Origin: Diprion similis
Taxonomy: Eukaryota; Arthropoda; Insecta; Hymenoptera; Diprionidae
DNA length: 64,000 nucleotides
Direction: 5' to 3'
NCBI RefSeq assembly: GCF_021155765.1
Contig: NC_060117.1
Location: forward strand, 1 to 64,000
The notes below the pieces were generated by a model, which was not told the DNA's origin, ran no database searches, and saw nothing but the letters and a program-made list of their open reading frames with translations. Within the stretch, counting starts at the first letter, position 1. Every line of letters begins with the position of its first letter. Position numbers and translations under genes: made by a program. Positions 1,331 through 28,540 of this stretch are shown piece by piece.

Positions 1331-1587
1331 CTCTAGAGCGTCGGAAATTTTCAAAGTTTTTTTCGAAATTTTCGTCACGGGGAGAAGTGTTTTCTAGGCG
1401 TTTTAGGCGATTCTGAGACGACCCAGGGTAACTTTCGAAGACGTTTTTTTCATTTTTGTACCTGTTCCAAAAATTTCAAAATATCAGTGAAAAAATCTGA
1501 GAAAATTCTGAAAAATTGGGCAAGCTGTCGCGGTCAAAAAACTTGATATCAAGTACCCCTGAAAAGTGTACGGTTTTGGAACTATAG

Positions 1588-1920
1588 ATGTGCATTGTGG
1601 TTTCGGGGAGCCGAACCCTTCCTAACCTCTCGGCCGCCGTAGAATCCGGAAGCCGAACTTATTCCAACCTTCCGGGTGCCGCGACCACCTTTCGCGTTGT
1701 TCGTACCCCCGTGTGTGTTGTGGTTTCGGGGAGCCGAACCCTTCCTAACCTCTCGGCCGCCGTAGAATCCGGAAGCCGAACTTATTCCAACCTTCCGGGT
1801 GCCGCGACCACCTTTCGCGTTGTTCGTACCCTCGTGTGTGTTGTGGTTTCGGGAAGCCGAACCCTTTCTCACCTTCCGGCCGCCGCAGAATCCGGAAGCC
1901 GAACATATTCCAACCGTCCG
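1588..1920. repeat. 123-bp tandem subrepeat inside unit 1
   Basis: Copies begin near 1588, 1711 and 1834 (third partial), with period 123 bp, a multiple of three, so a frame stays open through all copies. Each carries GGAGCCGAACCCTTCCTAAC and GGAAGCCGAACTTATTCC. All units have this array; unit 5 has one extra full copy, making it 123 bp longer. The persistent open frame follows from the period and is not evidence of a protein. Confidence 0.9.
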
Positions 1921-2221
1921 GAATCCAATGTCTCGGAGGGCCGAACTTGTCCTAACTTTTCTGAAATCGATCCGATTGACTTGAAATTTGAATTACCGCG
2001 GGTCCCCGCTGGATTATGGCCATCTAAACGCGATGGTGGTGTCGAATCGGAAGTCGGTCGCCGGGAAAGCGGAAACGCCGGCTGTAAAATCCGAACCGTG
2101 AGATTTAGCGACATGCTTCCAAGGAGGTTTTTTCACCGCGATGACCGCTCTGGTCCCCTGGAATTTTTTCGGAATTTTCCGGGGCGATTTTGAAGTTTTT
2201 GAGTTGGGCGGTGGAATTAGG

Positions 2222-2580
2222 AAGAAAAAAAAAAAAAAGTTCCCGCGAAATAGGTACAGATCGGCTCAGAATCGTTCGAAACGCGTAGAAAACAAGTCTC
2301 TGGGTAACATTTTTTTTTTGAAAATTTGAAAAATTTCAAAGTTTTTGGGGTTGTGCGTTCAAAAAAAAAAAAAAAAGTTCCCGCGAGATAGGTACAGATC
2401 GGCTCAGAATCGTTCGAAACGCGTAGAAAACAAGTCTCTGAGTAACATTTTTTTTTTTCAAAATTCGAAAAATTTCAAAGTTTTTGGGGTTGTGCGTTCA
2501 AAAAAAAAAAAAAAAGTTCCCGCGAAATAGGTACAGATCGGCTCAGAATCGTTTGAAACGCCTAAAAAACAAGTTTCTGT
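2222..2580. repeat. 138-139 bp A-tract tandem subrepeat inside unit 1
   Basis: Three copies, each with an A run of about 14-16 followed by GTTCCCGCGA, then GGTACAGATCGGCTCAGAATC, with GTTCCCGCG at about 2239, 2377 and 2516. The middle copy reads GAGATAGG where the others read GAAATAGG. The same triplet occurs in every unit; units 4 and 10 carry more diverged first and second copies. Confidence 0.88.
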
Positions 2581-3281
2581 GTGACGAAAATTTCGAAAAA
2601 AAACTTAGAAAATTTCCGTTGTTTCCGACATAGGTTAGGTTAGGTGCGAAATAATTTTCAAAAATTCATATCTCCTGAACCGTTCTACGGAGAGGGTTCG
2701 TTGAGGGCTCGTTTTGTTCGATAAATCAAGCTCTACCAAGTTCATGTCTGGACCAATTAGGTCCAGCGACGGTTCCCCCCCCACGCCCCCCGCGGGGGGG
2801 GTTTTGAGGGGGGGTGTCAGTCTGACATCGGAAACGGGTGCGCAGAACTTTTATGCGTCCGACCATCACTTTTTGAGTTGGGTCGGGTCAGGTTAGGTGG
2901 GTGATATTTTTCGAAAAACGCCTATCTTTTGAACCAAGCTACGGAGAGGGTTGGTTAGGGGCTCATTTTTTTCGATAAATCAAGGGCTGAAAAGTTCATG
3001 CCAGGACCAAATAGGTCCAGCAACCGTTCCCCCCCCACCCCCCCCGGGGGGGGTCAAATGGGGGAGGGGGGAGGGGGCCGTGGGGGACATAACGGGCGGG
3101 GGGATCCTGCACCCGACCCACCCACCCCCCCTCGCCCCCCCCCCATTTTTGCCCCCCCCCCCCCCTCAAAATCTCAAAAACGGCCCGGTAGATTTTGGAA
3201 TAATTAGCGGCATTGGAAAGAGCGGAAAAAATCCGAAAAAGTTCACTCAAAAACCGGAAGTCGACCGGTGGTCACGGCTAT

Positions 3282-3502
3282 AACCTAACCTAACCTAACC
3301 TAACCTAACCTAACCTAACCTAACCTAACCTAACCTAACCTAACCTAACCTAACCTAACCTAACCTAACCTAACCTAACCTAACCTAACCTAACCTAACC
3401 TAACCTAACCTAACCTAACCTAACCTAACCTAACCTAACCTAACCTAACCTAACCTAACCTAACCTAACCTAACCCAACCTAACCTAACCTAACTTAACC
3501 TA
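3282..3502. repeat. Internal telomeric array between units 1 and 2 (221 bp)
   Basis: (CCTAA)n with a CCCAA variant near 3475 and CTTAA just before unit 2. Its length is the same as the array between units 7 and 8. Confidence 0.93.
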
Positions 3503-5452
3503 CTCTAGAGCGTCGGAAATTTTCAAAGTTTTTTTCGAAATTTTCGTCACGGGGAGAAGTGTTTTCTAGGCGTTTTAGGCGATTCTGAGACGACCCAGGG
3601 TAACTTTCGAAGACGTTTTTTTCATTTTTGTACCTGTTCCAAAAATTTCAAAATATCAGTGAAAAAATCTGAGAAAATTCTGAAAAATTGGGCAAGCTGT
3701 CGCGGTCAAAAAACTTGATATCAAGTACCCCTGAAAAGTGTACGGTTTTGGAACTATAGATGTGCATTGTGGTTTCGGGGAGCCGAACCCTTCCTAACCT
3801 CTCGGCCGCCGTAGAATCCGGAAGCCGAACTTATTCCAACCTTCCGGGTGCCGCGACCACCTTTCGCGTTGTTCGTACCCCCGTGTGTGTTGTGGTTTCG
3901 GGGGGCCGAACCCTTCCTAACCTCTCGGCCGCCGTAGAATCCGGAAGCCGAACTTATTCCAACCTTCCGGGTGCCGCGACCACCTTTCGCGTTGTTCGTA
4001 CCCTCGTGTGTGTTGTGGTTTCGGGAAGCCGAACCCTTTCTCACCTTCCGGCCGCCGCAGAATCCGGAAGCCGAACATATTCCAACCGTCCGGAATCCAA
4101 TGTCTCGGAGGGCCGAACTTGTCCTAACTTTTCTGAAATCGATCCGATTGACTTGAAATTTGAATTACCGCGGGTCCCCGCTGGATTATGGCCATCTAAA
4201 CGCGATGGTGGTGTCGAATCGGAAGTCGGTCGCCGGGAAAGCGGAAACGCCGGCTGTAAAATCCGAACCGTGAGATTTAGCGACATGCTTCCAAGGAGGT
4301 TTTTTCACCGCGATGACCGCTCTGGTCCCCTGGAATTTTTTCGGAATTTTCCGGGGCGATTTTGAAGTTTTTGAGTTGGGCGGTGGAATTAGGAAGAAAA
4401 AAAAAAAAAAGTTCCCGCGAAATAGGTACAGATCGGCTCAGAATCGTTCGAAACGCGTAGAAAACAAGTCTCTGGGTAACATTTTTTTTTTGAAAATTTG
4501 AAAAATTTCAAAGTTTTTGGGGTTGTGCGTTCAAAAAAAAAAAAAAAAGTTCCCGCGAGATAGGTACAGATCGGCTCAGAATCGTTCGAAACGCGTAGAA
4601 AACAAGTCTCTGAGTAACATTTTTTTTTTTCAAAATTCGAAAAATTTCAAAGTTTTTGGGGTTGTGCGTTCAAAAAAAAAAAAAAAAGTTCCCGCGAAAT
4701 AGGTACAGATCGGCTCAGAATCGTTTGAAACGCCTAAAAAACAAGTTTCTGTGTGACGAAAATTTCGAAAAAAAACTTAGAAAATTTCCGTTGTTTCCGA
4801 CATAGGTTAGGTTAGGTGCGAAATAATTTTCAAAAATTCATATCTCCTGAACCGTTCTACGGAGAGGGTTCGTTGAGGGCTCGTTTTGTTCGATAAATCA
4901 AGCTCTACCAAGTTCATGTCTGGACCAATTAGGTCCAGCGACGGTTCCCCCCCCACGCCCCCCGCGGGGGGGGTTTTGAGGGGGGGTGTCAGTCTGACAT
5001 CGGAAACGGGTGCGCAGAACTTTTATGCGTCCGACCATCACTTTTTGAGTTGGGTCGGGTCAGGTTAGGTGGGTGATATTTTTCGAAAAACGCCTATCTT
5101 TTGAACCAAGCTACGGAGAGGGTTGGTTAGGGGCTCATTTTTTTCGATAAATCAAGGGCTGAAAAGTTCATGCCAGGACCAAATAGGTCCAGCAACCGTT
5201 CCCCCCCCACCCCCCCCGGGGGGGGTCAAATGGGGGAGGGGGGAGGGGGCCGTGGGGGACATAACGGGCGGGGGGATCCTGCACCCGACCCACCCACCCC
5301 CCCTCGCCCCCCCCCCATTTTTGCCCCCCCCCCCCCTCAAAATCTCAAAAACGGCCCGGTAGATTTTGGAATAATTAGCGGCATTGGAAAGAGCGGAAAA
5401 AATCCGAAAAAGTTCACTCAAAAACCGGAAGTCGACCGGTGGTCACGGCTAT
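3503..5452. repeat. Subtelomeric unit 2
   Basis: Same order of parts as unit 1. It carries a diagnostic G in the second 123-bp subrepeat (TTTCGGGGGGCCGAACC near 3898), shared only with units 6 and 8. Same length as unit 8 (1950 bp). Confidence 0.93.
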
Positions 5453-5563
5453 AACCTAACCTAACCTAACCTAACCTAACCTAACCTAACCTAACCTAAC
5501 CTAACCTAACCTAACCTAACCTAACCTAACCTAACCCAACCTAACCTAACCTAACTTAACCTA
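5453..5563. repeat. Internal telomeric array between units 2 and 3 (111 bp)
   Basis: (CCTAA)n with the same CCCAA and CTTAA variants at its right end. Same length as the arrays between units 6 and 7 and between units 8 and 9. Confidence 0.92.
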
Positions 5564-7514
5564 CTCTAGAGCGTCGGAAATTTTCAAAGTTTTTTTCGAA
5601 ATTTTCGTCACGGGGAGAAGTGTTTTCTAGGCGTTTTAGGCGATTCTGAGACGACCCAGGGTAACTTTCGAAGACGTTTTTTTCATTTTTGTACCTGTTC
5701 CAAAAATTTCAAAATATCAGTGAAAAAATCTGAGAAAATTCTGAAAAATTGGGCAAGCTGTCGCGGTCAAAAAACTTGATATCAAGTACCCCTGAAAAGT
5801 GTACGGTTTTGGAACTATAGATGTGCATTGTGGTTTCGGGGAGCCGAACCCTTCCTAACCTCTCGGCCGCCGTAGAATCCGGAAGCCGAACTTATTCCAA
5901 CCTTCCGGGTGCCGCGACCACCTTTCGCGTTGTTCGTACCCCCGTGTGTGTTGTGGTTTCGGGGAGCCGAACCCTTCCTAACCTCTCGGCCGCCGTAGAA
6001 TCCGGAAGCCGAACTTATTCCAACCTTCCGGGTGCCGCGACCACCTTTCGCGTTGTTCGTACCCTCGTGTGTGTTGTGGTTTCGGGAAGCCGAACCCTTT
6101 CTCACCTTCCGGCCGCCGCAGAATCCGGAAGCCGAACATATTCCAACCGTCCGGAATCCAATGTCTCGGAGGGCCGAACTTGTCCTAACTTTTCTGAAAT
6201 CGATCCGATTGACTTGAAATTTGAATTACCGCGGGTCCCCGCTGGATTATGGCCATCTAAACGCGATGGTGGTGTCGAATCGGAAGTCGGTCGCCGGGAA
6301 AGCGGAAACGCCGGCTGTAAAATCCGAACCGTGAGATTTAGCGACATGCTTCCAAGGAGGTTTTTTCACCGCGATGACCGCTCTGGTCCCCTGGAATTTT
6401 TTCGGAATTTTCCGGGGCGATTTTGAAGTTTTTGAGTTGGGCGGTGGAATTAGGAAGAAAAAAAAAAAAAAGTTCCCGCGAAATAGGTACAGATCGGCTC
6501 AGAATCGTTCGAAACGCGTAGAAAACAAGTCTCTGGGTAACATTTTTTTTTTGAAAATTTGAAAAATTTCAAAGTTTTTGGGGTTGTGCGTTCAAAAAAA
6601 AAAAAAAAAGTTCCCGCGAGATAGGTACAGATCGGCTCAGAATCGTTCGAAACGCGTAGAAAACAAGTCTCTGAGTAACATTTTTTTTTTTCAAAATTCG
6701 AAAAATTTCAAAGTTTTTGGGGTTGTGCGTTCAAAAAAAAAAAAAAAAGTTCCCGCGAAATAGGTACAGATCGGCTCAGAATCGTTTGAAACGCCTAAAA
6801 AACAAGTTTCTGTGTGACGAAAATTTCGAAAAAAAACTTAGAAAATTTCCGTTGTTTCCGACATAGGTTAGGTTAGGTGCGAAATAATTTTCAAAAATTC
6901 ATATCTCCTGAACCGTTCTACGGAGAGGGTTCGTTGAGGGCTCGTTTTGTTCGATAAATCAAGCTCTACCAAGTTCATGTCTGGACCAATTAGGTCCAGC
7001 GACGGTTCCCCCCCCACGCCCCCCGCGGGGGGGGTTTTGAGGGGGGGTGTCAGTCTGACATCGGAAACGGGTGCGCAGAACTTTTATGCGTCCGACCATC
7101 ACTTTTTGAGTTGGGTCGGGTCAGGTTAGGTGGGTGATATTTTTCGAAAAACGCCTATCTTTTGAACCAAGCTACGGAGAGGGTTGGTTAGGGGCTCATT
7201 TTTTTCGATAAATCAAGGGCTGAAAAGTTCATGCCAGGACCAAATAGGTCCAGCAACCGTTCCCCCCCCACCCCCCCCGGGGGGGGTCAAATGGGGGAGG
7301 GGGGAGGGGGCCGTGGGGGACATAACGGGCGGGGGGATCCTGCACCCGACCCACCCACCCCCCCTCGCCCCCCCCCCATTTTTGCCCCCCCCCCCCCCTC
7401 AAAATCTCAAAAACGGCCCGGTAGATTTTGGAATAATTAGCGGCATTGGAAAGAGCGGAAAAAATCCGAAAAAGTTCACTCAAAAACCGGAAGTCGACCG
7501 GTGGTCACGGCTAT
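5564..7514. repeat. Subtelomeric unit 3
   Basis: Same order of parts as unit 1, without the unit-2 diagnostic G. Pairs with unit 9, from which it seems to differ mainly in the length of a C run. Confidence 0.92.
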
Positions 7515-7675
7515 AACCTAACCTAACCTAACCTAACCTAACCTAACCTAACCTAACCTAACCTAACCTAACCTAACCTAACCTAACCTAACCTAACCTA
7601 ACCTAACCTAACCTAACCTAACCTAACCTAACCTAACCTAACCTAACCTAACCTAACCTAACCTAACCTAACCTA
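7515..7675. repeat. Internal telomeric array between units 3 and 4 (161 bp)
   Basis: Uniform (CCTAA)n without the CTTAA variant at its right end. Same length as the array between units 9 and 10. Confidence 0.92.
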
Positions 7676-9625
7676 CTCTGGAGCGTCGGAAATTTTCAAA
7701 GTTTTTTTCGAAATTTTCGTCACGGGGAGAAGTGTTTTCTAGGCGTTTCGGGCCATTCTGAGACGACCCAGGGTAACTTTCGAAGACGTTTTTTTTATTT
7801 TTGTACCTGTTCCAAAAATTTCAAAATATCAGTGAAAAAATCTGAGAAAATTCTGAAAAATTGTGCAAGCTGTCGCGGTCAAAAAACTTGATATCAAGTA
7901 CCCCCGAAAAGTGTACGGTTTTGGAACTATAGATGTGCATTGTGGTTTCGGGGAGCCGAACCCTTCCTAACCTCTCGGCCGCCGTAGAATCCGGAAGCCG
8001 AACTTATTCCAACCTTCCGGGATCCGCGACCACCTTTCGCGTTGTTCGTACCCCCGTGTGTGTTGTGGTTTCGGGGAGCCGAACCCTTCCTAACCTCTCG
8101 GCCGCCGTAGAATCCGGAAGCCGAACTTATTCCAACCTTCCGGGTGCCGCGACCACCTTTCGCGTTGTTCGTACCCCCGTGTGTGTTGTGGTTTCGGGGA
8201 GCCGAACCCTTCCTAACCTCTCGGCCGCCGTAGAATCCGGAAGCCGAACATATTCCAACCGTCCGGAATCCAATGTCTCGGAGGGCCGAACTTGTCCTAA
8301 CTTTTCTGAAATCGATCCGATCGACTTGAAATTTGAATTACCGCGGGTCCCCGCTTGATTATGGCCATCTGAACGCGATGGTGGTGTCGAATCGGAAGTC
8401 GGTCGCCGGGAAAGCGGAAACGCCGGCTGTAAAATCCGAACCGTGAGATTTAGCGACATGCTTCTGAGGAGGTTTTTTCACCGCGATGACCGCACTGGTT
8501 CACTGGAATTTTTTCGGAATTTTCCGGGGCGATTTTGAAGTTTTTGAGTTGGGCGGTGGAATTAGGAAAAAAAAAAAAAAAAGTTCCCGACAAATAGGTA
8601 CCGATCGGCTCAGAATCGTCCAAAACGCCCAGAAAACAAGTCTCTGGGTGACTAATTTTTTTTCGAAATTCGATAAATTTCAAAGTTTTTTGGGTCGTGC
8701 GTTCAAAAAAAAAAAAAAAAAGTACCCGCCAAATAGGTACAGATCGGCTCAGAATCGTTCGAAACGCGTAGAAAACAAGTCTCTGGGTAACATTTTTTTT
8801 TTTCAAAATTCGAAAAATTTCAAAGTTTTTGGGGTTGTGCGTTCAAAAAAAAAAAAAAAAGTTCCCGCGAAATAGGTACAGATCGGCTCAGAATCGTTTG
8901 AAACGCCTAAAAAACAAGTTTCTGTGTGACGAAAATTTCGAAAAAAAACTTAGAAAATTTCCGTTGTTTCCGACATAGGTTAGGTTAGGTGCAAAATAAT
9001 TTTCAAAAATTCATATCTCCTGAACCGTTCTACGGAGAGGGTTCGTTGAGGGCTCGTTTTGTTCGATAAATCAAGCTCTACCAAGTTCATGTCTGGACCA
9101 ATTAGGTCCAGCGACGGTTCCCCCCCCACGCCCCCCGCGGGGGGGGTTTTGAGGGGGGGTGTCAGTCTGACATCGGAAACGGGTGCGCAGAACTTTTATG
9201 CGTCCGACCATCACTTTTTGAGTTGGGTCGGGTCAGGTTAGGTGGGTGATATTTTTCGAAAAACGCCTATCTTTTGAACCAAGCTACGGAGAGGGTTGGT
9301 TAGGGGCTCATTTTTTTCGATAAATCAAGGGCTGAAAAGTTCATGCCAGGACCAAATAGGTCCAGCAACCGTTCCCCCCCCACCCCCCCCGGGGGGGGTC
9401 AAATGGGGGAGGGGGGAGGGGGCCGTGGGGGACATAACGGGCGGGGGGATCCTGCACCCGACCCACCCACCCCCCCTCGCCCCCCCCCCATTTTTGCCCC
9501 CCCCCCCCCTCAAAATCTCAAAAACGGCCCGATAGATTTTGGAATAAATAGCGGCATCGGAAAGAGCGGAAAAAATCCGAAAAAGTTCACTCAAAAACCG
9601 AAAGTCCACCGATGGCAACGGCTAT
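7676..9625. repeat. Subtelomeric unit 4 (divergent subtype)
   Basis: Starts CTCTGGAGCG rather than CTCTAGAGCG. Shares many substitutions with unit 10 only: TTTCGGGCCATTC, GGGATCCGCGACC in the first 123-bp subrepeat, GTCCCCGCTTGATT, altered A-tract copies, GGTGCAAAATAATT and the end GTCCACCGATGGCAACGG. Units 4 and 10 therefore form a separate subtype. Confidence 0.92.
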
Positions 9626-9854: not shown

Positions 9855-9888
<34 letters not shown>

Positions 9889-10525
9889 TTTTGGCGGCGA
9901 CGAGGAAATCTTCAAAAGACATCCGGATGTTCTGGTTGTCCTCGGATAGTGCCGGATTTTTACCGGCTAAAACCCCTCCGCCGCCGCCCTCGCCCAGGGC
10001 GAAGTGGAACCGCTTTCGCATTACTTCGCTTCGCCCCTGTGGCCGGCCAGTTCTTCGTGGCCTCTCTCCGCCTTCCTCGGCGTGGCGTGAGCCATCTTAA
10101 CCCGACAGTCACGCCTCAGTCAGCCCTTCCTTTCCATCATACGTCGCTCGGCGTGGGCAGAATCACGCGCGTACCGTCCAATGTCCTCTGCCCCGCTCAC
10201 ACTCTTTTCAGTTCGTCACTCAGTCTTGTCCTTAACCTAACATGCTCGGCGCTGGGCCGGCTTTTTACAAGTGACCTGTCATTCCACCGCCTGCGTGCAC
10301 CTTAAGTTAGCCCTATCTACACTACACTACTATTGCACTGCATTTGTCACATGCGCTGTCACGCTAAATATTGTTTTACAAAGCAAGCTTAGGGCGGCTC
10401 AAGGGTGACTTTGCACTAAGTGTCCCGTGCACCCCTTCGCTCGCCAACACCATCACCTTTGTCACCTCCACCAGTCGGTCAATACTAGAAAAAAAAGAAT
10501 ATGAATCCCGCCACCTCTCACCTGT

Positions 10526-13500
10526 TTACGCTGTGGCGCGTCGTTCACTTCTTCTCCTTCTTTCGGCCTCCTCCTTCGCGCGCAGCACTGCACTGGCGAA
10601 GTCAGCCGCGGCTTTCCACTTCTCTGAGCCTTCAAGCATCGCCCTCACCAGGTCCTGGATGCTCTCGGCGCGTCCCATGATCCTCCACATTTCCTCCCTT
10701 TGCGTATTCCAGGCCTCGCATACAAACGAGGTGTGGTTAGCGTCGTCTGAGGCCTCGTCACAGTGATGGCATTTCGCCGTGCCCTCCTTGCCGATGCGCT
10801 TTAGGTACGCCCCAAAGCATCCATGGCCTGTCAGCCCCTGGGTGAGGTGGAAGTCCATTTGGCCATGTTTCCGGTCCACCCAGGGTATTACCGAGGGTAT
10901 CGCAGTCCTCGTCCAGGCCCCCTTGTCCTCCTCGCTCCACTCCTTGTCCCATTCCTCGAGTGTACGCTTCCGTTCCTCGCGCCTGAGTCTGTTTCTGGCG
11001 GGCCTGTTGCGTATTGCGCCTCCGGCCTCCGCGTCCGCTATCCTTTTTCGCTCTGCCGCCAGGAGGTGGAGCGGTATCAGCGTTGCCAACACCATTACGG
11101 CTGGCGTTGAGACCGTGCGGTACGCTGACACCACACGGAGGGCGCAGGCCCTTCCCGCAGCCTCCAGTCTGCTCCTGTTCCTTTGGACGCTCACGGCGTC
11201 GGCCCACACCGGAGCTCCGTACAGCGCCACGGAGTAGGTGACGCTCGCGAGGAGCCTTCTTCTGCCGCTAGCCGGGCCCCCGATGTTGGGCATAAGCCTT
11301 CCGATGGCCGCGGCTACACCCATCGCCTTGCTGGCAGCCTGCTGCACGTGCTCGGCGAAGTTCAACCTAGCATCGATGGTCACTCCAAGGTATTTGGCGC
11401 TACCCGTGGGCGCGACCTCGTGCCCCTTGACCGGAATAGGGTTGACCTTCAGCGTGTTCCGGCGCGTCAGCACCACTATCTCCGTCTTCTTTTCCGCTAG
11501 GTCCAGTCCTCTCTCAGTCAGCCATGCCCAGGCACTGTTGACTGCTTCCGTGGTCTTGGCCTCCAGGAGGCCAGTCGTCCTCGCCGTCACCACCAGCGCC
11601 ACGTCGTCTGCGAAGCCCACGGTGGTCACTCCATCCGGCATTTTCATGCGGAGGAGGTCGTCGTACGCCACGTTCCACAGCAGCGGCCCGAGGACCGACC
11701 CCTGCGGCACGCCTGCTGAAAGCCGACGGGTTTTTTCTCCCTCGCTGGTACGGTACAGAAGCAGCCTGTCTTCCAGGTAGCTCCCGACCATCCCGACGAG
11801 GTACGCCGGTATGCCGTTCCTCCTTTCCAGCGCGTCCAGTATAACTTGGTGCCCCACCGCATTGAAGGCGTTTTTGACGTCCAAAAGCACCATCAAGCAG
11901 GGGGTAGCGAAGCGACCTTTACGCTCGTTAGCCTTCCTCGCGATGTCAACAACCTCGTCGATGGCGTGGATCGTGGACCTGCCCCTTCGAAAGCCGTACT
12001 GGTTGTCGGCTAAGCCCCCAGACGTGTTGAGGGCGGCCTCCAACCTGGCATGCAGAAGCCTCTCAAGCAGCTTTCCCGTCACATCGATCAAGCTGATGGG
12101 CCGGTATTTTTGCCCGCTTCCCTCTTTGGCCTGTCCCTTCGGTAGCAGGACCAGCCTCTGCCGCTTCCACCTCGGGTGGAAAATCCCCTGCTGTAGGCAC
12201 TCGTTGAACGCCCTGAGCAGTACCTCCGGGTAGTTCTCCGCGACCACTGCCAGGGCTTCCCCAGGCACGCCGTCGGGACCAGGTGCCTTGCCTCCGCTGA
12301 TCCTCCTAGCTGCGTGGTACAGCTCCGTCAAGGTGAAGGGCTCGGGGTGGGGGCCAGCTACGGCCGTCCCGAGGATGCTCCTCTCCGACTGCCTGTGGAC
12401 CGGAAACAACTCGGTTAATATGTTTTCCACGGTCACCGGGTCGTCCGGCTGCCGAAGCACTCCCAGCTTCTTGGTGACCAGTTTGTACGGCAGCCCCCAC
12501 GGGTCCTCATCCACCGCCTGCAAGAGCTCCTCCCAGCATCTGGCCTTGCTGGCTTTGATCTCGTCTCTGAGGTCCCGCTTCGCTGTCCGGTAAGCCACCA
12601 TGCTGGCGTCCGCATCCCCGCTTTTAGCTCGTGCGCGCTGAGCCCGTCTTCTGGCGCTTACGCATTCCCGTCGGAGCTGGGCGATCCGATCGGTCCACCA
12701 GTGTGCTGCGGGCTTGCCTCGAGGGGGCTTCCTTTTTGGCATACCTGCGTCGCATGCCCTAGTGATGGTATTCATCAGCACGTCGACTTCCGACCCGCCG
12801 ATGTCTGTTGGTCGGCTCCCACGTTTCCGCTTCTCCTCGGCGAGGCAGGACACCATGGCCGCCTTGTCAAGCTTCCTGGTGACCCAGCCTGTTGTCCCTA
12901 GGTCGCCTCCGCTTCCTCGCTGCGTCCGGTTGCCCGAGCTGAGCGCCCACTCCAGGTAGATGTAGCTGTGGTCGCTCAGGCTCTCTTCCTCCAGGACCCT
13001 CCATTCGCGCATCTCGGCTGCCACGCTAGGGCTGCCAACCGTGATGTCAATGACCGACTTCGAGCCGGTGGCCGCTCTCCTCCAGGTCGGAGCTTTCCCC
13101 GTGTTGATTGGGAAGAGATCAAGCCTGGCTAGAAAGTCCGCCACGATTCGGCCCCTGTCGTCCCATCTCTCAGACCCCCACAAAGGTGACTTCGCGTTGA
13201 AGTCGCCCGCTATGAGGATTCTGTTACCCACTGCTCTGGCCTGCGCCTCCAGCTCGTCAAGTTGCCTCTCAAAGTCCTCGATCCTCGCGTTGGGCGAAAA
13301 GTAACAGCTGAAAACATAGGTCTGGTTAATTTCGGCCCATACGAATCCTTTACCTTTTCCACCCGGTGTAATGCTGCCGGTGAAGTTCCGCGTTACTGCG
13401 ATCGCCGCATCCCCCTTGCAGTCGGGCATCCACAGTCCTGCCTTGCCCGTGCTGCTGGGCTCGGATACCAGCAGGATGCTGATCCCCAAAGCCGCCGCGG

Positions 13501-15297: not shown

Positions 15298-15961
15298 ATT
15301 AAATTGAATGAAGGCTTAAGACGGTTCGGCCATCATGGCAGCTACACCTCGGTGCAGCGTCTATCCCCGCCTGAAGTTGCCCTAACCCCCTTCGCATAGA
15401 AGCCGCTGTCGGCTTGTCGGTTGGTCGGTCCTATCCATGCGATCCCCCCTGTCCCTGACACATTCGGTCCTCCGACCGGGGATTCCCCTGCTAATCCGAA
15501 ACAGGTTAGGCCACCGGCCGGTTCAGACTTTGCCGGATTTACCCTACCGGACTTCGGGTATGAGGAAATACGGACCAAGTAATCCTCCACACACACGCCC
15601 GCGCCCCCAGGTTCAACCCCCGGCTAGGCTCCAGCAGCTTCAAGGAGCGGTTTTCCCACTTTGGGCCCGTGGCAGTGCGCCACCGCAGCCCGGTAAAGGT
15701 ACAAACTTCACTTTCGGCCCCGGTCAGTCGGCTACTACTCCTTCCTTGGTTAGTCTCCGAGGAATATCCGCCGAAGGCACGACCGCGTCTCACTCAATCA
15801 TCGCCATGCACGCACTCATTCACACTTTTGGCTGTCGTTCAGTCACCCCCCGCTCCCCCGTGGACCAGCCTAGCTTGGTTAACCCTTGCTAGCATTGCTC
15901 CACAGGATCGGCACGGAAAGGCTTAAGCCCCACACCACGACAAGGAAACAGCCTCGTGGGG

Positions 15962-16002
15962 AACCTAACCTAACCTAACCTAACCTAACCTAACCTAACC
16001 TA
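15962..16002. repeat. Telomeric array to the right of the retrotransposon (41 bp)
   Basis: Eight CCTAA repeats between the element's 5' end and unit 5. Together with 9626-9854 it forms the interrupted insertion target. Confidence 0.93.
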
Positions 16003-18076: not shown

Positions 18077-18182
18077 AACCTAACCTAACCTAACCTAACC
18101 TAACCTAACCTAACCTAACCTAACCTAACCTAACCTAACCTAACCTAACCTAACCCAACCTAACCTAACCTAACTTAACCTA
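18077..18182. repeat. Internal telomeric array between units 5 and 6 (106 bp)
   Basis: (CCTAA)n with the CCCAA and CTTAA variants near its right end. One pentamer shorter than the 111-bp class. Confidence 0.92.
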
Positions 18183-20133
18183 CTCTAGAGCGTCGGAAAT
18201 TTTCAAAGTTTTTTTCGAAATTTTCGTCACGGGGAGAAGTGTTTTCTAGGCGTTTTAGGCGATTCTGAGACGACCCAGGGTAACTTTCGAAGACGTTTTT
18301 TTCATTTTTGTACCTGTTCCAAAAATTTCAAAATATCAGTGAAAAAATCTGAGAAAATTCTGAAAAATTGGGCAAGCTGTCGCGGTCAAAAAACTTGATA
18401 TCAAGTACCCCTGAAAAGTGTACGGTTTTGGAACTATAGATGTGCATTGTGGTTTCGGGGAGCCGAACCCTTCCTAACCTCTCGGCCGCCGTAGAATCCG
18501 GAAGCCGAACTTATTCCAACCTTCCGGGTGCCGCGACCACCTTTCGCGTTGTTCGTACCCCCGTGTGTGTTGTGGTTTCGGGGGGCCGAACCCTTCCTAA
18601 CCTCTCGGCCGCCGTAGAATCCGGAAGCCGAACTTATTCCAACCTTCCGGGTGCCGCGACCACCTTTCGCGTTGTTCGTACCCTCGTGTGTGTTGTGGTT
18701 TCGGGAAGCCGAACCCTTTCTCACCTTCCGGCCGCCGCAGAATCCGGAAGCCGAACATATTCCAACCGTCCGGAATCCAATGTCTCGGAGGGCCGAACTT
18801 GTCCTAACTTTTCTGAAATCGATCCGATTGACTTGAAATTTGAATTACCGCGGGTCCCCGCTGGATTATGGCCATCTAAACGCGATGGTGGTGTCGAATC
18901 GGAAGTCGGTCGCCGGGAAAGCGGAAACGCCGGCTGTAAAATCCGAACCGTGAGATTTAGCGACATGCTTCCAAGGAGGTTTTTTCACCGCGATGACCGC
19001 TCTGGTCCCCTGGAATTTTTTCGGAATTTTCCGGGGCGATTTTGAAGTTTTTGAGTTGGGCGGTGGAATTAGGAAGAAAAAAAAAAAAAAGTTCCCGCGA
19101 AATAGGTACAGATCGGCTCAGAATCGTTCGAAACGCGTAGAAAACAAGTCTCTGGGTAACATTTTTTTTTTGAAAATTTGAAAAATTTCAAAGTTTTTGG
19201 GGTTGTGCGTTCAAAAAAAAAAAAAAAAGTTCCCGCGAGATAGGTACAGATCGGCTCAGAATCGTTCGAAACGCGTAGAAAACAAGTCTCTGAGTAACAT
19301 TTTTTTTTTTCAAAATTCGAAAAATTTCAAAGTTTTTGGGGTTGTGCGTTCAAAAAAAAAAAAAAAAGTTCCCGCGAAATAGGTACAGATCGGCTCAGAA
19401 TCGTTTGAAACGCCTAAAAAACAAGTTTCTGTGTGACGAAAATTTCGAAAAAAAACTTAGAAAATTTCCGTTGTTTCCGACATAGGTTAGGTTAGGTGCG
19501 AAATAATTTTCAAAAATTCATATCTCCTGAACCGTTCTACGGAGAGGGTTCGTTGAGGGCTCGTTTTGTTCGATAAATCAAGCTCTACCAAGTTCATGTC
19601 TGGACCAATTAGGTCCAGCGACGGTTCCCCCCCCACGCCCCCCGCGGGGGGGGTTTTGAGGGGGGGTGTCAGTCTGACATCGGAAACGGGTGCGCAGAAC
19701 TTTTATGCGTCCGACCATCACTTTTTGAGTTGGGTCGGGTCAGGTTAGGTGGGTGATATTTTTCGAAAAACGCCTATCTTTTGAACCAAGCTACGGAGAG
19801 GGTTGGTTAGGGGCTCATTTTTTTCGATAAATCAAGGGCTGAAAAGTTCATGCCAGGACCAAATAGGTCCAGCAACCGTTCCCCCCCCACCCCCCCCGGG
19901 GGGGGTCAAATGGGGGAGGGGGGAGGGGGCCGTGGGGGACATAACGGGCGGGGGGATCCTGCACCCGACCCACCCACCCCCCCTCGCCCCCCCCCCATTT
20001 TTGCCCCCCCCCCCCCCTCAAAATCTCAAAAACGGCCCGGTAGATTTTGGAATAATTAGCGGCATTGGAAAGAGCGGAAAAAATCCGAAAAAGTTCACTC
20101 AAAAACCGGAAGTCGACCGGTGGTCACGGCTAT
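18183..20133. repeat. Subtelomeric unit 6
   Basis: Standard order of parts, with the diagnostic G in the second 123-bp subrepeat shared with units 2 and 8. Confidence 0.92.
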
Positions 20134-20244
20134 AACCTAACCTAACCTAACCTAACCTAACCTAACCTAACCTAACCTAACCTAACCTAACCTAACCTAA
20201 CCTAACCTAACCTAACCCAACCTAACCTAACCTAACTTAACCTA
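20134..20244. repeat. Internal telomeric array between units 6 and 7 (111 bp)
   Basis: (CCTAA)n with CCCAA and CTTAA variants at the right end. Confidence 0.92.
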
Positions 20245-22196
20245 CTCTAGAGCGTCGGAAATTTTCAAAGTTTTTTTCGAAATTTTCGTCACGGGGAGAA
20301 GTGTTTTCTAGGCGTTTTAGGCGATTCTGAGACGACCCAGGGTAACTTTCGAAGACGTTTTTTTCATTTTTGTACCTGTTCCAAAAATTTCAAAATATCA
20401 GTGAAAAAATCTGAGAAAATTCTGAAAAATTGGGCAAGCTGTCGCGGTCAAAAAACTTGATATCAAGTACCCCTGAAAAGTGTACGGTTTTGGAACTATA
20501 GATGTGCATTGTGGTTTCGGGGAGCCGAACCCTTCCTAACCTCTCGGCCGCCGTAGAATCCGGAAGCCGAACTTATTCCAACCTTCCGGGTGCCGCGACC
20601 ACCTTTCGCGTTGTTCGTACCCCCGTGTGTGTTGTGGTTTCGGGGAGCCGAACCCTTCCTAACCTCTCGGCCGCCGTAGAATCCGGAAGCCGAACTTATT
20701 CCAACCTTCCGGGTGCCGCGACCACCTTTCGCGTTGTTCGTACCCTCGTGTGTGTTGTGGTTTCGGGAAGCCGAACCCTTTCTCACCTTCCGGCCGCCGC
20801 AGAATCCGGAAGCCGAACATATTCCAACCGTCCGGAATCCAATGTCTCGGAGGGCCGAACTTGTCCTAACTTTTCTGAAATCGATCCGATTGACTTGAAA
20901 TTTGAATTACCGCGGGTCCCCGCTGGATTATGGCCATCTAAACGCGATGGTGGTGTCGAATCGGAAGTCGGTCGCCGGGAAAGCGGAAACGCCGGCTGTA
21001 AAATCCGAACCGTGAGATTTAGCGACATGCTTCCAAGGAGGTTTTTTCACCGCGATGACCGCTCTGGTCCCCTGGAATTTTTTCGGAATTTTCCGGGGCG
21101 ATTTTGAAGTTTTTGAGTTGGGCGGTGGAATTAGGAAGAAAAAAAAAAAAAAGTTCCCGCGAAATAGGTACAGATCGGCTCAGAATCGTTCGAAACGCGT
21201 AGAAAACAAGTCTCTGGGTAACATTTTTTTTTTGAAAATTTGAAAAATTTCAAAGTTTTTGGGGTTGTGCGTTCAAAAAAAAAAAAAAAAGTTCCCGCGA
21301 GATAGGTACAGATCGGCTCAGAATCGTTCGAAACGCGTAGAAAACAAGTCTCTGAGTAACATTTTTTTTTTTCAAAATTCGAAAAATTTCAAAGTTTTTG
21401 GGGTTGTGCGTTCAAAAAAAAAAAAAAAAGTTCCCGCGAAATAGGTACAGATCGGCTCAGAATCGTTTGAAACGCCTAAAAAACAAGTTTCTGTGTGACG
21501 AAAATTTCGAAAAAAAACTTAGAAAATTTCCGTTGTTTCCGACATAGGTTAGGTTAGGTGCGAAATAATTTTCAAAAATTCATATCTCCTGAACCGTTCT
21601 ACGGAGAGGGTTCGTTGAGGGCTCGTTTTGTTCGATAAATCAAGCTCTACCAAGTTCATGTCTGGACCAATTAGGTCCAGCGACGGTTCCCCCCCCACGC
21701 CCCCCGCGGGGGGGGTTTTGAGGGGGGGTGTCAGTCTGACATCGGAAACGGGTGCGCAGAACTTTTATGCGTCCGACCATCACTTTTTGAGTTGGGTCGG
21801 GTCAGGTTAGGTGGGTGATATTTTTCGAAAAACGCCTATCTTTTGAACCAAGCTACGGAGAGGGTTGGTTAGGGGCTCATTTTTTTCGATAAATCAAGGG
21901 CTGAAAAGTTCATGCCAGGACCAAATAGGTCCAGCAACCGTTCCCCCCCCCACCCCCCCCGGGGGGGGTCAAATGGGGGAGGGGGGAGGGGGCCGTGGGG
22001 GACATAACGGGCGGGGGGATCCTGCACCCGACCCACCCACCCCCCCTCGCCCCCCCCCCATTTTTGCCCCCCCCCCCCCCTCAAAATCTCAAAAACGGCC
22101 CGGTAGATTTTGGAATAATTAGCGGCATTGGAAAGAGCGGAAAAAATCCGAAAAAGTTCACTCAAAAACCGGAAGTCGACCGGTGGTCACGGCTAT
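20245..22196. repeat. Subtelomeric unit 7
   Basis: Partner of unit 1. The visible difference is one extra C in the C run near 21943-21960, which changes the fortuitous frames there. Confidence 0.92.
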
Positions 22197-22417
22197 AACC
22201 TAACCTAACCTAACCTAACCTAACCTAACCTAACCTAACCTAACCTAACCTAACCTAACCTAACCTAACCTAACCTAACCTAACCTAACCTAACCTAACC
22301 TAACCTAACCTAACCTAACCTAACCTAACCTAACCTAACCTAACCTAACCTAACCTAACCTAACCTAACCTAACCTAACCTAACCTAACCCAACCTAACC
22401 TAACCTAACTTAACCTA
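22197..22417. repeat. Internal telomeric array between units 7 and 8 (221 bp)
   Basis: (CCTAA)n with CCCAA and CTTAA variants at the right end; same length as the array between units 1 and 2. Confidence 0.93.
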
Positions 22418-24367
22418 CTCTAGAGCGTCGGAAATTTTCAAAGTTTTTTTCGAAATTTTCGTCACGGGGAGAAGTGTTTTCTAGGCGTTTTAGGCGATTC
22501 TGAGACGACCCAGGGTAACTTTCGAAGACGTTTTTTTCATTTTTGTACCTGTTCCAAAAATTTCAAAATATCAGTGAAAAAATCTGAGAAAATTCTGAAA
22601 AATTGGGCAAGCTGTCGCGGTCAAAAAACTTGATATCAAGTACCCCTGAAAAGTGTACGGTTTTGGAACTATAGATGTGCATTGTGGTTTCGGGGAGCCG
22701 AACCCTTCCTAACCTCTCGGCCGCCGTAGAATCCGGAAGCCGAACTTATTCCAACCTTCCGGGTGCCGCGACCACCTTTCGCGTTGTTCGTACCCCCGTG
22801 TGTGTTGTGGTTTCGGGGGGCCGAACCCTTCCTAACCTCTCGGCCGCCGTAGAATCCGGAAGCCGAACTTATTCCAACCTTCCGGGTGCCGCGACCACCT
22901 TTCGCGTTGTTCGTACCCTCGTGTGTGTTGTGGTTTCGGGAAGCCGAACCCTTTCTCACCTTCCGGCCGCCGCAGAATCCGGAAGCCGAACATATTCCAA
23001 CCGTCCGGAATCCAATGTCTCGGAGGGCCGAACTTGTCCTAACTTTTCTGAAATCGATCCGATTGACTTGAAATTTGAATTACCGCGGGTCCCCGCTGGA
23101 TTATGGCCATCTAAACGCGATGGTGGTGTCGAATCGGAAGTCGGTCGCCGGGAAAGCGGAAACGCCGGCTGTAAAATCCGAACCGTGAGATTTAGCGACA
23201 TGCTTCCAAGGAGGTTTTTTCACCGCGATGACCGCTCTGGTCCCCTGGAATTTTTTCGGAATTTTCCGGGGCGATTTTGAAGTTTTTGAGTTGGGCGGTG
23301 GAATTAGGAAGAAAAAAAAAAAAAAGTTCCCGCGAAATAGGTACAGATCGGCTCAGAATCGTTCGAAACGCGTAGAAAACAAGTCTCTGGGTAACATTTT
23401 TTTTTTGAAAATTTGAAAAATTTCAAAGTTTTTGGGGTTGTGCGTTCAAAAAAAAAAAAAAAAGTTCCCGCGAGATAGGTACAGATCGGCTCAGAATCGT
23501 TCGAAACGCGTAGAAAACAAGTCTCTGAGTAACATTTTTTTTTTTCAAAATTCGAAAAATTTCAAAGTTTTTGGGGTTGTGCGTTCAAAAAAAAAAAAAA
23601 AAGTTCCCGCGAAATAGGTACAGATCGGCTCAGAATCGTTTGAAACGCCTAAAAAACAAGTTTCTGTGTGACGAAAATTTCGAAAAAAAACTTAGAAAAT
23701 TTCCGTTGTTTCCGACATAGGTTAGGTTAGGTGCGAAATAATTTTCAAAAATTCATATCTCCTGAACCGTTCTACGGAGAGGGTTCGTTGAGGGCTCGTT
23801 TTGTTCGATAAATCAAGCTCTACCAAGTTCATGTCTGGACCAATTAGGTCCAGCGACGGTTCCCCCCCCACGCCCCCCGCGGGGGGGGTTTTGAGGGGGG
23901 GTGTCAGTCTGACATCGGAAACGGGTGCGCAGAACTTTTATGCGTCCGACCATCACTTTTTGAGTTGGGTCGGGTCAGGTTAGGTGGGTGATATTTTTCG
24001 AAAAACGCCTATCTTTTGAACCAAGCTACGGAGAGGGTTGGTTAGGGGCTCATTTTTTTCGATAAATCAAGGGCTGAAAAGTTCATGCCAGGACCAAATA
24101 GGTCCAGCAACCGTTCCCCCCCCACCCCCCCCGGGGGGGGTCAAATGGGGGAGGGGGGAGGGGGCCGTGGGGGACATAACGGGCGGGGGGATCCTGCACC
24201 CGACCCACCCACCCCCCCTCGCCCCCCCCCCATTTTTGCCCCCCCCCCCCCTCAAAATCTCAAAAACGGCCCGGTAGATTTTGGAATAATTAGCGGCATT
24301 GGAAAGAGCGGAAAAAATCCGAAAAAGTTCACTCAAAAACCGGAAGTCGACCGGTGGTCACGGCTAT
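22418..24367. repeat. Subtelomeric unit 8
   Basis: Partner of unit 2, same length and same diagnostic G near 22815. Confidence 0.92.
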
Positions 24368-24478
24368 AACCTAACCTAACCTAACCTAACCTAACCTAAC
24401 CTAACCTAACCTAACCTAACCTAACCTAACCTAACCTAACCTAACCTAACCCAACCTAACCTAACCTAACTTAACCTA
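24368..24478. repeat. Internal telomeric array between units 8 and 9 (111 bp)
   Basis: Same length and variants as the array between units 2 and 3. Confidence 0.92.
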
Positions 24479-26430
24479 CTCTAGAGCGTCGGAAATTTTC
24501 AAAGTTTTTTTCGAAATTTTCGTCACGGGGAGAAGTGTTTTCTAGGCGTTTTAGGCGATTCTGAGACGACCCAGGGTAACTTTCGAAGACGTTTTTTTCA
24601 TTTTTGTACCTGTTCCAAAAATTTCAAAATATCAGTGAAAAAATCTGAGAAAATTCTGAAAAATTGGGCAAGCTGTCGCGGTCAAAAAACTTGATATCAA
24701 GTACCCCTGAAAAGTGTACGGTTTTGGAACTATAGATGTGCATTGTGGTTTCGGGGAGCCGAACCCTTCCTAACCTCTCGGCCGCCGTAGAATCCGGAAG
24801 CCGAACTTATTCCAACCTTCCGGGTGCCGCGACCACCTTTCGCGTTGTTCGTACCCCCGTGTGTGTTGTGGTTTCGGGGAGCCGAACCCTTCCTAACCTC
24901 TCGGCCGCCGTAGAATCCGGAAGCCGAACTTATTCCAACCTTCCGGGTGCCGCGACCACCTTTCGCGTTGTTCGTACCCTCGTGTGTGTTGTGGTTTCGG
25001 GAAGCCGAACCCTTTCTCACCTTCCGGCCGCCGCAGAATCCGGAAGCCGAACATATTCCAACCGTCCGGAATCCAATGTCTCGGAGGGCCGAACTTGTCC
25101 TAACTTTTCTGAAATCGATCCGATTGACTTGAAATTTGAATTACCGCGGGTCCCCGCTGGATTATGGCCATCTAAACGCGATGGTGGTGTCGAATCGGAA
25201 GTCGGTCGCCGGGAAAGCGGAAACGCCGGCTGTAAAATCCGAACCGTGAGATTTAGCGACATGCTTCCAAGGAGGTTTTTTCACCGCGATGACCGCTCTG
25301 GTCCCCTGGAATTTTTTCGGAATTTTCCGGGGCGATTTTGAAGTTTTTGAGTTGGGCGGTGGAATTAGGAAGAAAAAAAAAAAAAAGTTCCCGCGAAATA
25401 GGTACAGATCGGCTCAGAATCGTTCGAAACGCGTAGAAAACAAGTCTCTGGGTAACATTTTTTTTTTGAAAATTTGAAAAATTTCAAAGTTTTTGGGGTT
25501 GTGCGTTCAAAAAAAAAAAAAAAAGTTCCCGCGAGATAGGTACAGATCGGCTCAGAATCGTTCGAAACGCGTAGAAAACAAGTCTCTGAGTAACATTTTT
25601 TTTTTTCAAAATTCGAAAAATTTCAAAGTTTTTGGGGTTGTGCGTTCAAAAAAAAAAAAAAAAGTTCCCGCGAAATAGGTACAGATCGGCTCAGAATCGT
25701 TTGAAACGCCTAAAAAACAAGTTTCTGTGTGACGAAAATTTCGAAAAAAAACTTAGAAAATTTCCGTTGTTTCCGACATAGGTTAGGTTAGGTGCGAAAT
25801 AATTTTCAAAAATTCATATCTCCTGAACCGTTCTACGGAGAGGGTTCGTTGAGGGCTCGTTTTGTTCGATAAATCAAGCTCTACCAAGTTCATGTCTGGA
25901 CCAATTAGGTCCAGCGACGGTTCCCCCCCCACGCCCCCCGCGGGGGGGGTTTTGAGGGGGGGTGTCAGTCTGACATCGGAAACGGGTGCGCAGAACTTTT
26001 ATGCGTCCGACCATCACTTTTTGAGTTGGGTCGGGTCAGGTTAGGTGGGTGATATTTTTCGAAAAACGCCTATCTTTTGAACCAAGCTACGGAGAGGGTT
26101 GGTTAGGGGCTCATTTTTTTCGATAAATCAAGGGCTGAAAAGTTCATGCCAGGACCAAATAGGTCCAGCAACCGTTCCCCCCCCCACCCCCCCCGGGGGG
26201 GGTCAAATGGGGGAGGGGGGAGGGGGCCGTGGGGGACATAACGGGCGGGGGGATCCTGCACCCGACCCACCCACCCCCCCTCGCCCCCCCCCCATTTTTG
26301 CCCCCCCCCCCCCCTCAAAATCTCAAAAACGGCCCGGTAGATTTTGGAATAATTAGCGGCATTGGAAAGAGCGGAAAAAATCCGAAAAAGTTCACTCAAA
26401 AACCGGAAGTCGACCGGTGGTCACGGCTAT
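24479..26430. repeat. Subtelomeric unit 9
   Basis: Partner of unit 3, with one extra C in the C run near 26177-26190. Confidence 0.92.
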
Positions 26431-26591
26431 AACCTAACCTAACCTAACCTAACCTAACCTAACCTAACCTAACCTAACCTAACCTAACCTAACCTAACCT
26501 AACCTAACCTAACCTAACCTAACCTAACCTAACCTAACCTAACCTAACCTAACCTAACCTAACCTAACCTAACCTAACCTAACCTAACCTA
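26431..26591. repeat. Internal telomeric array between units 9 and 10 (161 bp)
   Basis: Uniform (CCTAA)n, same length as the array between units 3 and 4. Confidence 0.92.
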
Positions 26592-28540
26592 CTCTGGAGC
26601 GTCGGAAATTTTCAAAGTTTTTTTCGAAATTTTCGTCACGGGGAGAAGTGTTTTCTAGGCGTTTCGGGCCATTCTGAGACGACCCAGGGTAACTTTCGAA
26701 GACGTTTTTTTTATTTTTGTACCTGTTCCAAAAATTTCAAAATATCAGTGAAAAAATCTGAGAAAATTCTGAAAAATTGTGCAAGCTGTCGCGGTCAAAA
26801 AACTTGATATCAAGTACCCCCGAAAAGTGTACGGTTTTGGAACTATAGATGTGCATTGTGGTTTCGGGGAGCCGAACCCTTCCTAACCTCTCGGCCGCCG
26901 TAGAATCCGGAAGCCGAACTTATTCCAACCTTCCGGGATCCGCGACCACCTTTCGCGTTGTTCGTACCCCCGTGTGTGTTGTGGTTTCGGGGAGCCGAAC
27001 CCTTCCTAACCTCTCGGCCGCCGTAGAATCCGGAAGCCGAACTTATTCCAACCTTCCGGGTGCCGCGACCACCTTTCGCGTTGTTCGTACCCCCGTGTGT
27101 GTTGTGGTTTCGGGGAGCCGAACCCTTCCTAACCTCTCGGCCGCCGTAGAATCCGGAAGCCGAACATATTCCAACCGTCCGGAATCCAATGTCTCGGAGG
27201 GCCGAACTTGTCCTAACTTTTCTGAAATCGATCCGATCGACTTGAAATTTGAATTACCGCGGGTCCCCGCTTGATTATGGCCATCTGAACGCGATGGTGG
27301 TGTCGAATCGGAAGTCGGTCGCCGGGAAAGCGGAAACGCCGGCTGTAAAATCCGAACCGTGAGATTTAGCGACATGCTTCTGAGGAGGTTTTTTCACCGC
27401 GATGACCGCACTGGTTCACTGGAATTTTTTCGGAATTTTCCGGGGCGATTTTGAAGTTTTTGAGTTGGGCGGTGGAATTAGGAAAAAAAAAAAAAAAAGT
27501 TCCCGACAAATAGGTACCGATCGGCTCAGAATCGTCCAAAACGCCCAGAAAACAAGTCTCTGGGTGACTAATTTTTTTTCGAAATTCGATAAATTTCAAA
27601 GTTTTTTGGGTCGTGCGTTCAAAAAAAAAAAAAAAAAGTACCCGCCAAATAGGTACAGATCGGCTCAGAATCGTTCGAAACGCGTAGAAAACAAGTCTCT
27701 GGGTAACATTTTTTTTTTTCAAAATTCGAAAAATTTCAAAGTTTTTGGGGTTGTGCGTTCAAAAAAAAAAAAAAAAGTTCCCGCGAAATAGGTACAGATC
27801 GGCTCAGAATCGTTTGAAACGCCTAAAAAACAAGTTTCTGTGTGACGAAAATTTCGAAAAAAAACTTAGAAAATTTCCGTTGTTTCCGACATAGGTTAGG
27901 TTAGGTGCAAAATAATTTTCAAAAATTCATATCTCCTGAACCGTTCTACGGAGAGGGTTCGTTGAGGGCTCGTTTTGTTCGATAAATCAAGCTCTACCAA
28001 GTTCATGTCTGGACCAATTAGGTCCAGCGACGGTTCCCCCCCCACGCCCCCCGCGGGGGGGGTTTTGAGGGGGGGTGTCAGTCTGACATCGGAAACGGGT
28101 GCGCAGAACTTTTATGCGTCCGACCATCACTTTTTGAGTTGGGTCGGGTCAGGTTAGGTGGGTGATATTTTTCGAAAAACGCCTATCTTTTGAACCAAGC
28201 TACGGAGAGGGTTGGTTAGGGGCTCATTTTTTTCGATAAATCAAGGGCTGAAAAGTTCATGCCAGGACCAAATAGGTCCAGCAACCGTTCCCCCCCCACC
28301 CCCCCCGGGGGGGGTCAAATGGGGGAGGGGGGAGGGGGCCGTGGGGGACATAACGGGCGGGGGGATCCTGCACCCGACCCACCCACCCCCCCTCGCCCCC
28401 CCCCCATTTTTGCCCCCCCCCCCCTCAAAATCTCAAAAACGGCCCGATAGATTTTGGAATAAATAGCGGCATCGGAAAGAGCGGAAAAAATCCGAAAAAG
28501 TTCACTCAAAAACCGAAAGTCCACCGATGGCAACGGCTAT
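26592..28540. repeat. Subtelomeric unit 10 (divergent subtype, innermost)
   Basis: Partner of unit 4 with the same subtype substitutions. A C run near 28410-28423 is slightly shorter than in unit 4. It is the last intact unit before the satellite. Confidence 0.92.

Follow-up and report, generated by a model that had tools for sequence, protein, structure and literature searches.

A near-identically repeated 8.3-kb block bordered by telomeric tracts in a subtelomeric unit array of the sawfly Diprion similis

Tandem arrays of non-telomeric units that alternate with telomeric tracts have been described from several organisms. In yeast, Y' elements form multi-kb units in 0–6 tandem copies with telomeric tracts between them, and after uncapping they are reported to be gained, lost, tandemly duplicated and rearranged into new mosaic elements (PMC13022453). 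For the MoTeR arrays of the blast fungus, interstitial tracts between units, truncation with subsequent re-capping and exact copying of tract lengths in a D-loop-type amplification are described (PMC7367193), while the TALT sequence of C. elegans is a non-telomeric block flanked by telomeric repeats, lying in tandem at the chromosome end, for which a single-copy duplication has been traced through variants (PMC9066243; PMC4595603). TRAS, a telomere-specific non-LTR retrotransposon of the silkworm, in turn, enters CCTAA sequence between the C and the T (PMC7265360). Here, an array at the left end of a 16.05-Mb contig of the sawfly Diprion similis is analyzed (NC_060117.1, hereafter C13; assembly of 269 Mb in 60 contigs), the window being the stretch of 64 kb at positions 1–64000, which contains zero N. 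The array is composed of ten non-telomeric units of about 1.95 kb (unit 5: 2,076 bp), which are arranged head-to-tail, separated by short CCTAA tracts of the same orientation and adjoined by the terminal telomere. By unit type, the order from outer to inner is A-G-A-D / retrotransposon / X-G-A-G-A-D, and inward of position 30256 non-array sequence carrying open reading frames (ORFs) follows.

The string A-G-A-D thus occurs twice, and global alignment of these two blocks (1331–9625 versus 20245–28540) resulted in 0 substitutions and 3 single-C indels, located in block 1/block 2 at 3029/21943, 7262/26177 and 9497/28413. An earlier note on this DNA had proposed that the blocks match unit for unit, with the divergent type D in units 4 and 10, and differ mainly in C/G run lengths. 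Both points are confirmed over about 8.29 kb, one-base C indels being the only differences, and not one substitution was found where many had been named as evidence against a duplication. Likewise, the three internal (CCTAA)n spacers are indeed equal in both blocks, with lengths of 219, 109 and 159 bp when counting the bases between TACTCT... and ...GGCTAT (the former values of 221, 111 and 161 bp included two more bases). As the exact match overruns the units by 24 bp outward of unit 1 and by 105 bp inward of the D unit, both block borders lie inside CCTAA tracts.

Identity of the units as such is not specific to the blocks. The diagnostic G previously assigned to units 2 and 8 is present there (3904 and 22819) but is not restricted to them, as unit 6 carries it as well (18584). 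The pair of G and A units joined by 109 bp is found thrice (units 2-3, 6-7 and 8-9), spacer included, with 0 substitutions among the copies, and units 1, 3, 7 and 9 also show 0 substitutions among themselves. Hence, near-identity is a property of most of the array beyond the two blocks, the seven A- and G-type units differing mutually by 0–1 substitutions, and the feature that is specific to the blocks is the ordered string of unit types together with the spacer lengths. Each kind of neighbouring unit pair has its own spacer length, namely 109 bp for G/A (3/3), 219 bp for A/G (2/2) and 159 bp for A/D (2/2), with 104 bp for X/G, which occurs once; length tracks the pair in 2 of the 1680 distinct arrangements of the window's eight lengths. 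For the spacer lengths of the blocks taken by themselves, P is 0.007 if the register is kept as stated and 0.02 if every register is allowed, and three matching spacers in a row are drawn from the 12 spacers of three other ends with P of about 0.005. Other contig ends are designated by contig number and side (right ends C1R, C3R, C6R and C10R; left ends C2L and C3L). With P of just 0.007–0.02 and coincidentally equal lengths at other ends, among them 119 bp found twice at C1R between unlike unit pairs, the spacer-length match was rejected as strong evidence by itself. Taken jointly, order, lengths and zero substitutions are beyond chance.

The 0 substitutions in 8,292 aligned bases correspond to an upper 95% bound of divergence of 3.6e-4. 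Insect mutation rates are near 3e-9 per site per generation, at which the block copy would be at most about 60,000 generations old. This substitution measure does not make the blocks younger than the remaining A/G units, because all seven lie 0–1 substitutions apart, and conversion could give an old copy a young appearance. Dating by C-run differences was discarded, as the 9-C run of units 7 and 9 versus the 8 C of units 1 and 3 stands for later conversion or homopolymer error.

Table 1. Features at the left end of C13; positions refer to the window.
Feature	Position	Strand	Remarks
Terminal telomere	1..1328	+	pure (CCTAA)n up to 1321, one CTTAA at 1322-1326, two bases before unit 1
Unit 1, type A (block 1)	1329..3281	+	
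Unit 2, type G	3501..5452	+	variant G at 3904
Unit 3, type A	5562..7514	+	
Unit 4, divergent type D	7674..9625	+	51 substitutions versus A (pairwise alignment)
TRAS-like non-LTR (long terminal repeat) retrotransposon	9855..15961	-	at CC^TAA in the unit 4/5 spacer; 3' poly(A) faces the chromosome end
Retrotransposon ORF2 (endonuclease and reverse transcriptase), 1042 aa	10526..13654	-	open throughout
Retrotransposon ORF1, 573 aa	13594..15315	-	zinc-knuckle match under Pfam cut-off
Unit 5, type X	16001..18076	+	one additional 123-bp repeat
Unit 6, type G	18181..20133	+	G at 18584
Unit 7, type A (block 2)	20243..22196	+	
Unit 8, type G	22416..24367	+	G at 22819
Unit 9, type A	24477..26430	+	
Unit 10, type D	26590..28540	+	
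Inner boundary	28541..30256	+	about 105 bp CCTAA, then degenerate CCTGACC-type array

The longest stop-free frame of the 2-kb unit has 201 codons, its edges are free of poly(A), and a search for RNA genes gave zero Rfam matches at gathering threshold (positions 1–34000). The retrotransposon between units 4 and 5 is an element of about 6.1 kb in which both ORF1 and ORF2 are open. Domains PF14529, PF03372 and PF00078 are found in ORF2. Its endonuclease has the best structure match with TRAS1 (1wdu, E 5.2e-13), the match with R1Bm being weaker (1.4e-8), and the best PDB matches of its reverse transcriptase part are R2 and LINE-1 structures; the zinc knuckle of ORF1 is a weak match at 19.1 bits versus a Pfam cut-off of 20.8. 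The insertion junction reads AACC/TTTT on the CCTAA strand at 9854/9855 and is the same in both C3R copies described below, placing the element between C and T, as for TRAS. The genome holds 28 matches to ORF2, 25 of them longer than 1.7 kb, and these 25 are located within about 62 kb of contig ends (12), in a cluster on C8 (11) and at C11 14.08 Mb (2). The 2-kb unit was also considered as a non-autonomous partner of the window retrotransposon. This was ruled out by zero sequence in common, blastn giving zero matches between the two at E 0.01; thus, terminal sequence in common with an autonomous partner, as in MoTeR, is absent for this pair.

The outer edge of the array differs from its internal spacers. 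In 6/6 internal marker spacers, CCCAA, three CCTAA and CTTAA precede the unit. Before unit 1, CTTAA is kept, CCCAA is missing and all sequence further out is pure CCTAA, which fits loss of the outer spacer part and re-capping, so that the distal copy looks truncated. Unit X, with plain CCTAA as outer flank and with 2 substitutions and 1 indel compared to the outermost unit of C6R, is for these reasons probably a former outermost unit. At the block junction, the CCTAA sequence around the retrotransposon measures about 230 + 40 bp, unlike other spacers.

Arrays of this unit are common to several contig ends and end-directed. A search of the genome with the outer-edge pattern of the unit (at most 2 mismatches) resulted in at least 100 places; among the matches listed, 81 are no more than about 43 kb away from a contig end and without exception point the way expected for that end, and internal ones comprise 12 at C8 27.39–27.46 Mb and 7 at C12 1.97–1.99 Mb. 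In the first 10 kb of the 13 other large contigs (C1–C12, C14), telomeric arrays plus units or unit parts are present in 6/13, namely at the left ends of C1, C2, C3, C4, C7 and C11 (C7 and C11 start within a unit, and C2–C4 contain N stretches), while neither telomeric array nor unit is found in this stretch at 7/13 left ends (C5, C6, C8, C9, C10, C12, C14). As to the internal places, C8 27388341–27522147 shows two facing end-type arrays, with units on the - strand up to 27.397 Mb and on the + strand from 27.411 Mb, which also hold the eleven retrotransposon matches longer than 1.7 kb and result either from a misjoined scaffold or from two chromosomes fused end to end. At C12 1970882–1986834, 2 Mb inward of the left end, there are seven unit edges oriented as at a right end, indicating an inversion, an internal relic or a misjoin.

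Exact repetition is also seen at other ends. The seven complete units of C1R read P-99-Q-254-P-64-P-119-P-99-Q-119-Q, and the two copies of its P-99-Q pair are separated by 0 substitutions and by two indels of one base each. At C3R, the repeated stretch comprises a retrotransposon, the spacer inward of it and a portion of the following unit, with 0 substitutions over about 7.5 kb compared (the comparison was begun at the poly(T), as poly(T) and telomeric edges otherwise inflate mismatches), the copies differing by one AACCT and by 31 more T in one poly(T). Units alternate at C6R, where the second and fourth unit show 0 substitutions. The C3R and C1R blocks are analogous events at two other ends. 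Thus, of the interpretation given in the earlier note, a recent block duplication via telomeric arrays is supported by the zero substitutions, the CCTAA borders and these analogous blocks, and the fast drift of simple repeats it had assumed is in line with the AACCT and T-run differences at C3R and with spacers of 139 versus 119 bp at C6R. The view of a single special block is an oversimplification, considering the internal G-A duplication, the equally young A/G units and the truncated-looking distal copy.

Exchange between units was assessed with 26 complete units of 7 ends (C2L and C3L are included but have no complete unit). Pairs with 0 substitutions account for 16/73 within ends and 0/252 between ends, and median divergence is 0.3% within and 2.8% between ends. 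Copying therefore takes place for the most part inside one end, and exchange from end to end is slower. When testing 10 of the 26 units for mosaicism by segment, the third unit of C6R and the second of C3R were found to be 0.0 and 1.4% from D but 8.6 and 8.2% from A at unit positions 901–1120, whereas at 1858–1953 they are 1.0 and 0.0% from A but 9.4 and 8.3% from D. Judged from these segments, both look like mosaics of types from different ends. The multiple alignment is unreliable in the C/G-run region (about 1601–1857 of the unit), and mosaicism was judged on other segments; the first unit of C10R, for example, shows 11 substitutions versus unit 1 over its whole length by multiple alignment and 3 substitutions plus 5 indels pairwise. 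Types A and D, furthermore, have in common a 539-base run without differences, a length never reached in 20,000 shuffles; the run consists partly of C/G runs, and constraint may be an alternative cause.

The explanation preferred here, with a probability of roughly 0.6, is invasion by a chromosome end and outward copying of a block, followed by truncation and re-capping. Both blocks would represent one array stretch, copied in a recent homologous recombination that started and ended in telomeric repeats, the interstitial tracts offering homology at many places for any short or broken end. As a first step, internal unequal exchange would yield G-A-G-A. A short or broken end beyond unit X would then invade the CCTAA tract adjoining the innermost D unit of the sister, the homologue or another end, and the array X-G-A-G-A-D would be copied outward by break-induced replication, leaving inner spacers unchanged and giving junction spacers new lengths. 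For MoTeR arrays, equal lengths of the interstitial tracts served as this kind of sign, in favour of D-loop copying or of rolling circles and against repeated breakage (PMC7367193). The TRAS-like element would have entered the junction tract before or after copying, and the outermost units of the copy (X, G) would have been lost, with pure telomere repeats re-capping the end inside the G/A spacer. One round of copying X-G-A-G-A-D and subsequent loss of X-G would result in the observed unit order. What the sequence shows is the identity of units and spacers, the borders in CCTAA, the marker pattern of the outer edge, the analogous blocks at two further ends and a telomerase gene; the succession of steps, the choice of break-induced replication over crossing over and the role of telomerase in capping are inferred.

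Alternatively, the second block may have arisen by plain unequal exchange or gene conversion within the interstitial tracts of sister or homologous arrays, with neither end invasion nor truncation. Unequal exchange is the usual cause of turnover in tandem arrays. It accounts for the G-A duplication inside the array, including the 219-bp spacer at the junction, and the mosaic units demonstrate that exchange between units does occur; with an already shortened partner it even gives the same product. However, as X-G is missing from the outer edge of the copy, this process requires a partner with exactly A-G-A-D as outermost units or else a second event, and the missing CCCAA marker fits a cut and re-capped end. 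Unequal exchange as the sole process is considered unlikely.

Rolling circles have been proposed as one alternative for MoTeR arrays (PMC7367193), and circle-templated telomere repeats have been inferred in yeast survivors (PMC13022453). An excised circle of subtelomeric units serving as rolling-circle template for end extension would give perfect copies with identical spacers in Diprion similis as well. Such a circle predicts back-to-back strings, but the A-G-A-D strings are parted by X-G and the retrotransposon, and the three G-A pairs are not all consecutive, making this route highly improbable.

Finally, one block might have been walked twice by the assembler, or haplotypes might have been joined in tandem via telomeric repeats. 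The blocks are almost identical, and the assembly does have end-type arrays in odd places, facing each other on C8 near 27.40 Mb and on C12 at 1.97 Mb. On the other hand, the neighbours of the blocks differ (telomere and retrotransposon versus unit 6 and fossil array), the window is without N, each block of less than 10 kb could be covered by a single long read, and block copies of another make-up exist at C3R and C1R, though an assembler fault could recur. Hence, an artefact appears rather improbable.

Against end invasion with outward copying, several observations have to be considered. The 9-C run common to units 7 and 9 and absent from units 1 and 3 is not predicted by a simple copy, which therefore requires later conversion or homopolymer error. 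At C1R, the two P/P spacers are unequal (64 versus 119 bp), and at C6R equal unit pairs are followed by the unequal spacers mentioned above (139 versus 119 bp), due either to a spacer change or to a fresh junction without unit change. With like units and unlike spacers at C6R, there are at least two outcomes, faithful copying of the spacers being one, and exact string copying shares the stage with other processes. Besides, the truncation argument relies on one variant repeat, and a single base change gives the same look. Break-induced replication, unequal crossing over and rolling circles leave nearly the same product. In addition, naked telomere repeats are described to invade in random register, the precision of MoTeR copying having required invasion by unit sequence (PMC7367193). 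This caveat bears on the block junction, whose CCTAA sequence is unlike the other spacers.

The array ends inward in the stretch 28541–30256, which is interpreted from its repeats as a fossil telomere-like inner boundary of the subtelomere. It mixes CCTAA with a TCAGG-type (CCTGACC) repeat. The genome contains 14 matches to the CCTGACC array, 12 of them near contig ends (11 different ends), the remaining ones being located beside the C8 cluster and at C13 5.25 Mb (69% identity). Faint relics of the unit's 123-bp repeat, with 62–78% identity, are found at about 30480–30660 and 31690–31740 and are perhaps an older generation of the subtelomeric unit. Considering the fossil array and the relics, the end looks as if old generations of end sequence had been pushed inward. 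Directly inside the subtelomere, a 24-bp tandem repeat is present in 4.9 copies (30931–31048).

As to telomerase, two pieces of its RNA-binding domain above cut-off were detected on C14 at 5.796 Mb, one match crossing a TAG, perhaps an exon edge. Among four frames near this locus, two match the RNA-binding domain, one the reverse transcriptase and one nothing, and the reverse transcriptase exon is barely over cut-off (30.0 versus 29.6 bits). Based on the RNA-binding-domain pieces and this exon, a telomerase gene is present.

A further idea, tentative and for now rather doubtful, is that a telomerase-bearing insect routinely extends its ends by recombination, with the tracts between units as landing sites and with cuts by the TRAS endonuclease starting truncation, re-capping and outward copying. 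If true, telomerase and copying resembling alternative lengthening of telomeres (ALT) would operate side by side in the germ line. Should spacer strings change between individuals, the rate of germ-line subtelomere recopying and the part played by the TRAS endonuclease would become directly measurable. The array provides a readable recombination record at natural ends of a telomerase-bearing genome of insect type, in which unit types, spacer lengths and variant repeats are internal markers for ordering single events. In the open-access literature searched, with most subscription journals outside its scope, no account of arrays of this kind from insects or sawflies was found. The kind of array is already known from other organisms, and exact string copying with built-in markers makes this one a good system for studying recombination at natural ends.

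By analogy, the array appears to work in the manner of Y' in yeast, MoTeR in the blast fungus and TALT in the nematode, albeit with a different unit and with TTAGG telomeres of insect type. With Y' it shares multi-kb tandem units parted by telomeric tracts; the units, however, are about 2 kb instead of 5.2 or 6.7 kb in size, and the host is an animal with TTAGG telomeres. MoTeR arrays likewise have units parted by interstitial telomere tracts, truncation with re-capping and exact tract lengths. MoTeRs are retrotransposons, however, whereas the 2-kb unit is without poly(A) at its edges and has nothing in common with the local retrotransposon. TALT resembles the array in being a non-telomeric block with telomeric flanks, in tandem at a chromosome end, but it stems from telomerase-deleted survivors, while here a telomerase gene is present and units are located at many contig ends. 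The retrotransposon, for its part, resembles silkworm TRAS in its insertion between C and T of CCTAA, in an endonuclease matching that of TRAS1 and in the location of its copies, which mostly lie close to contig ends or within the end-type cluster on C8. It differs from silkworm TRAS in residing within short spacers between 2-kb units and in being itself carried in a block copy at C3R.

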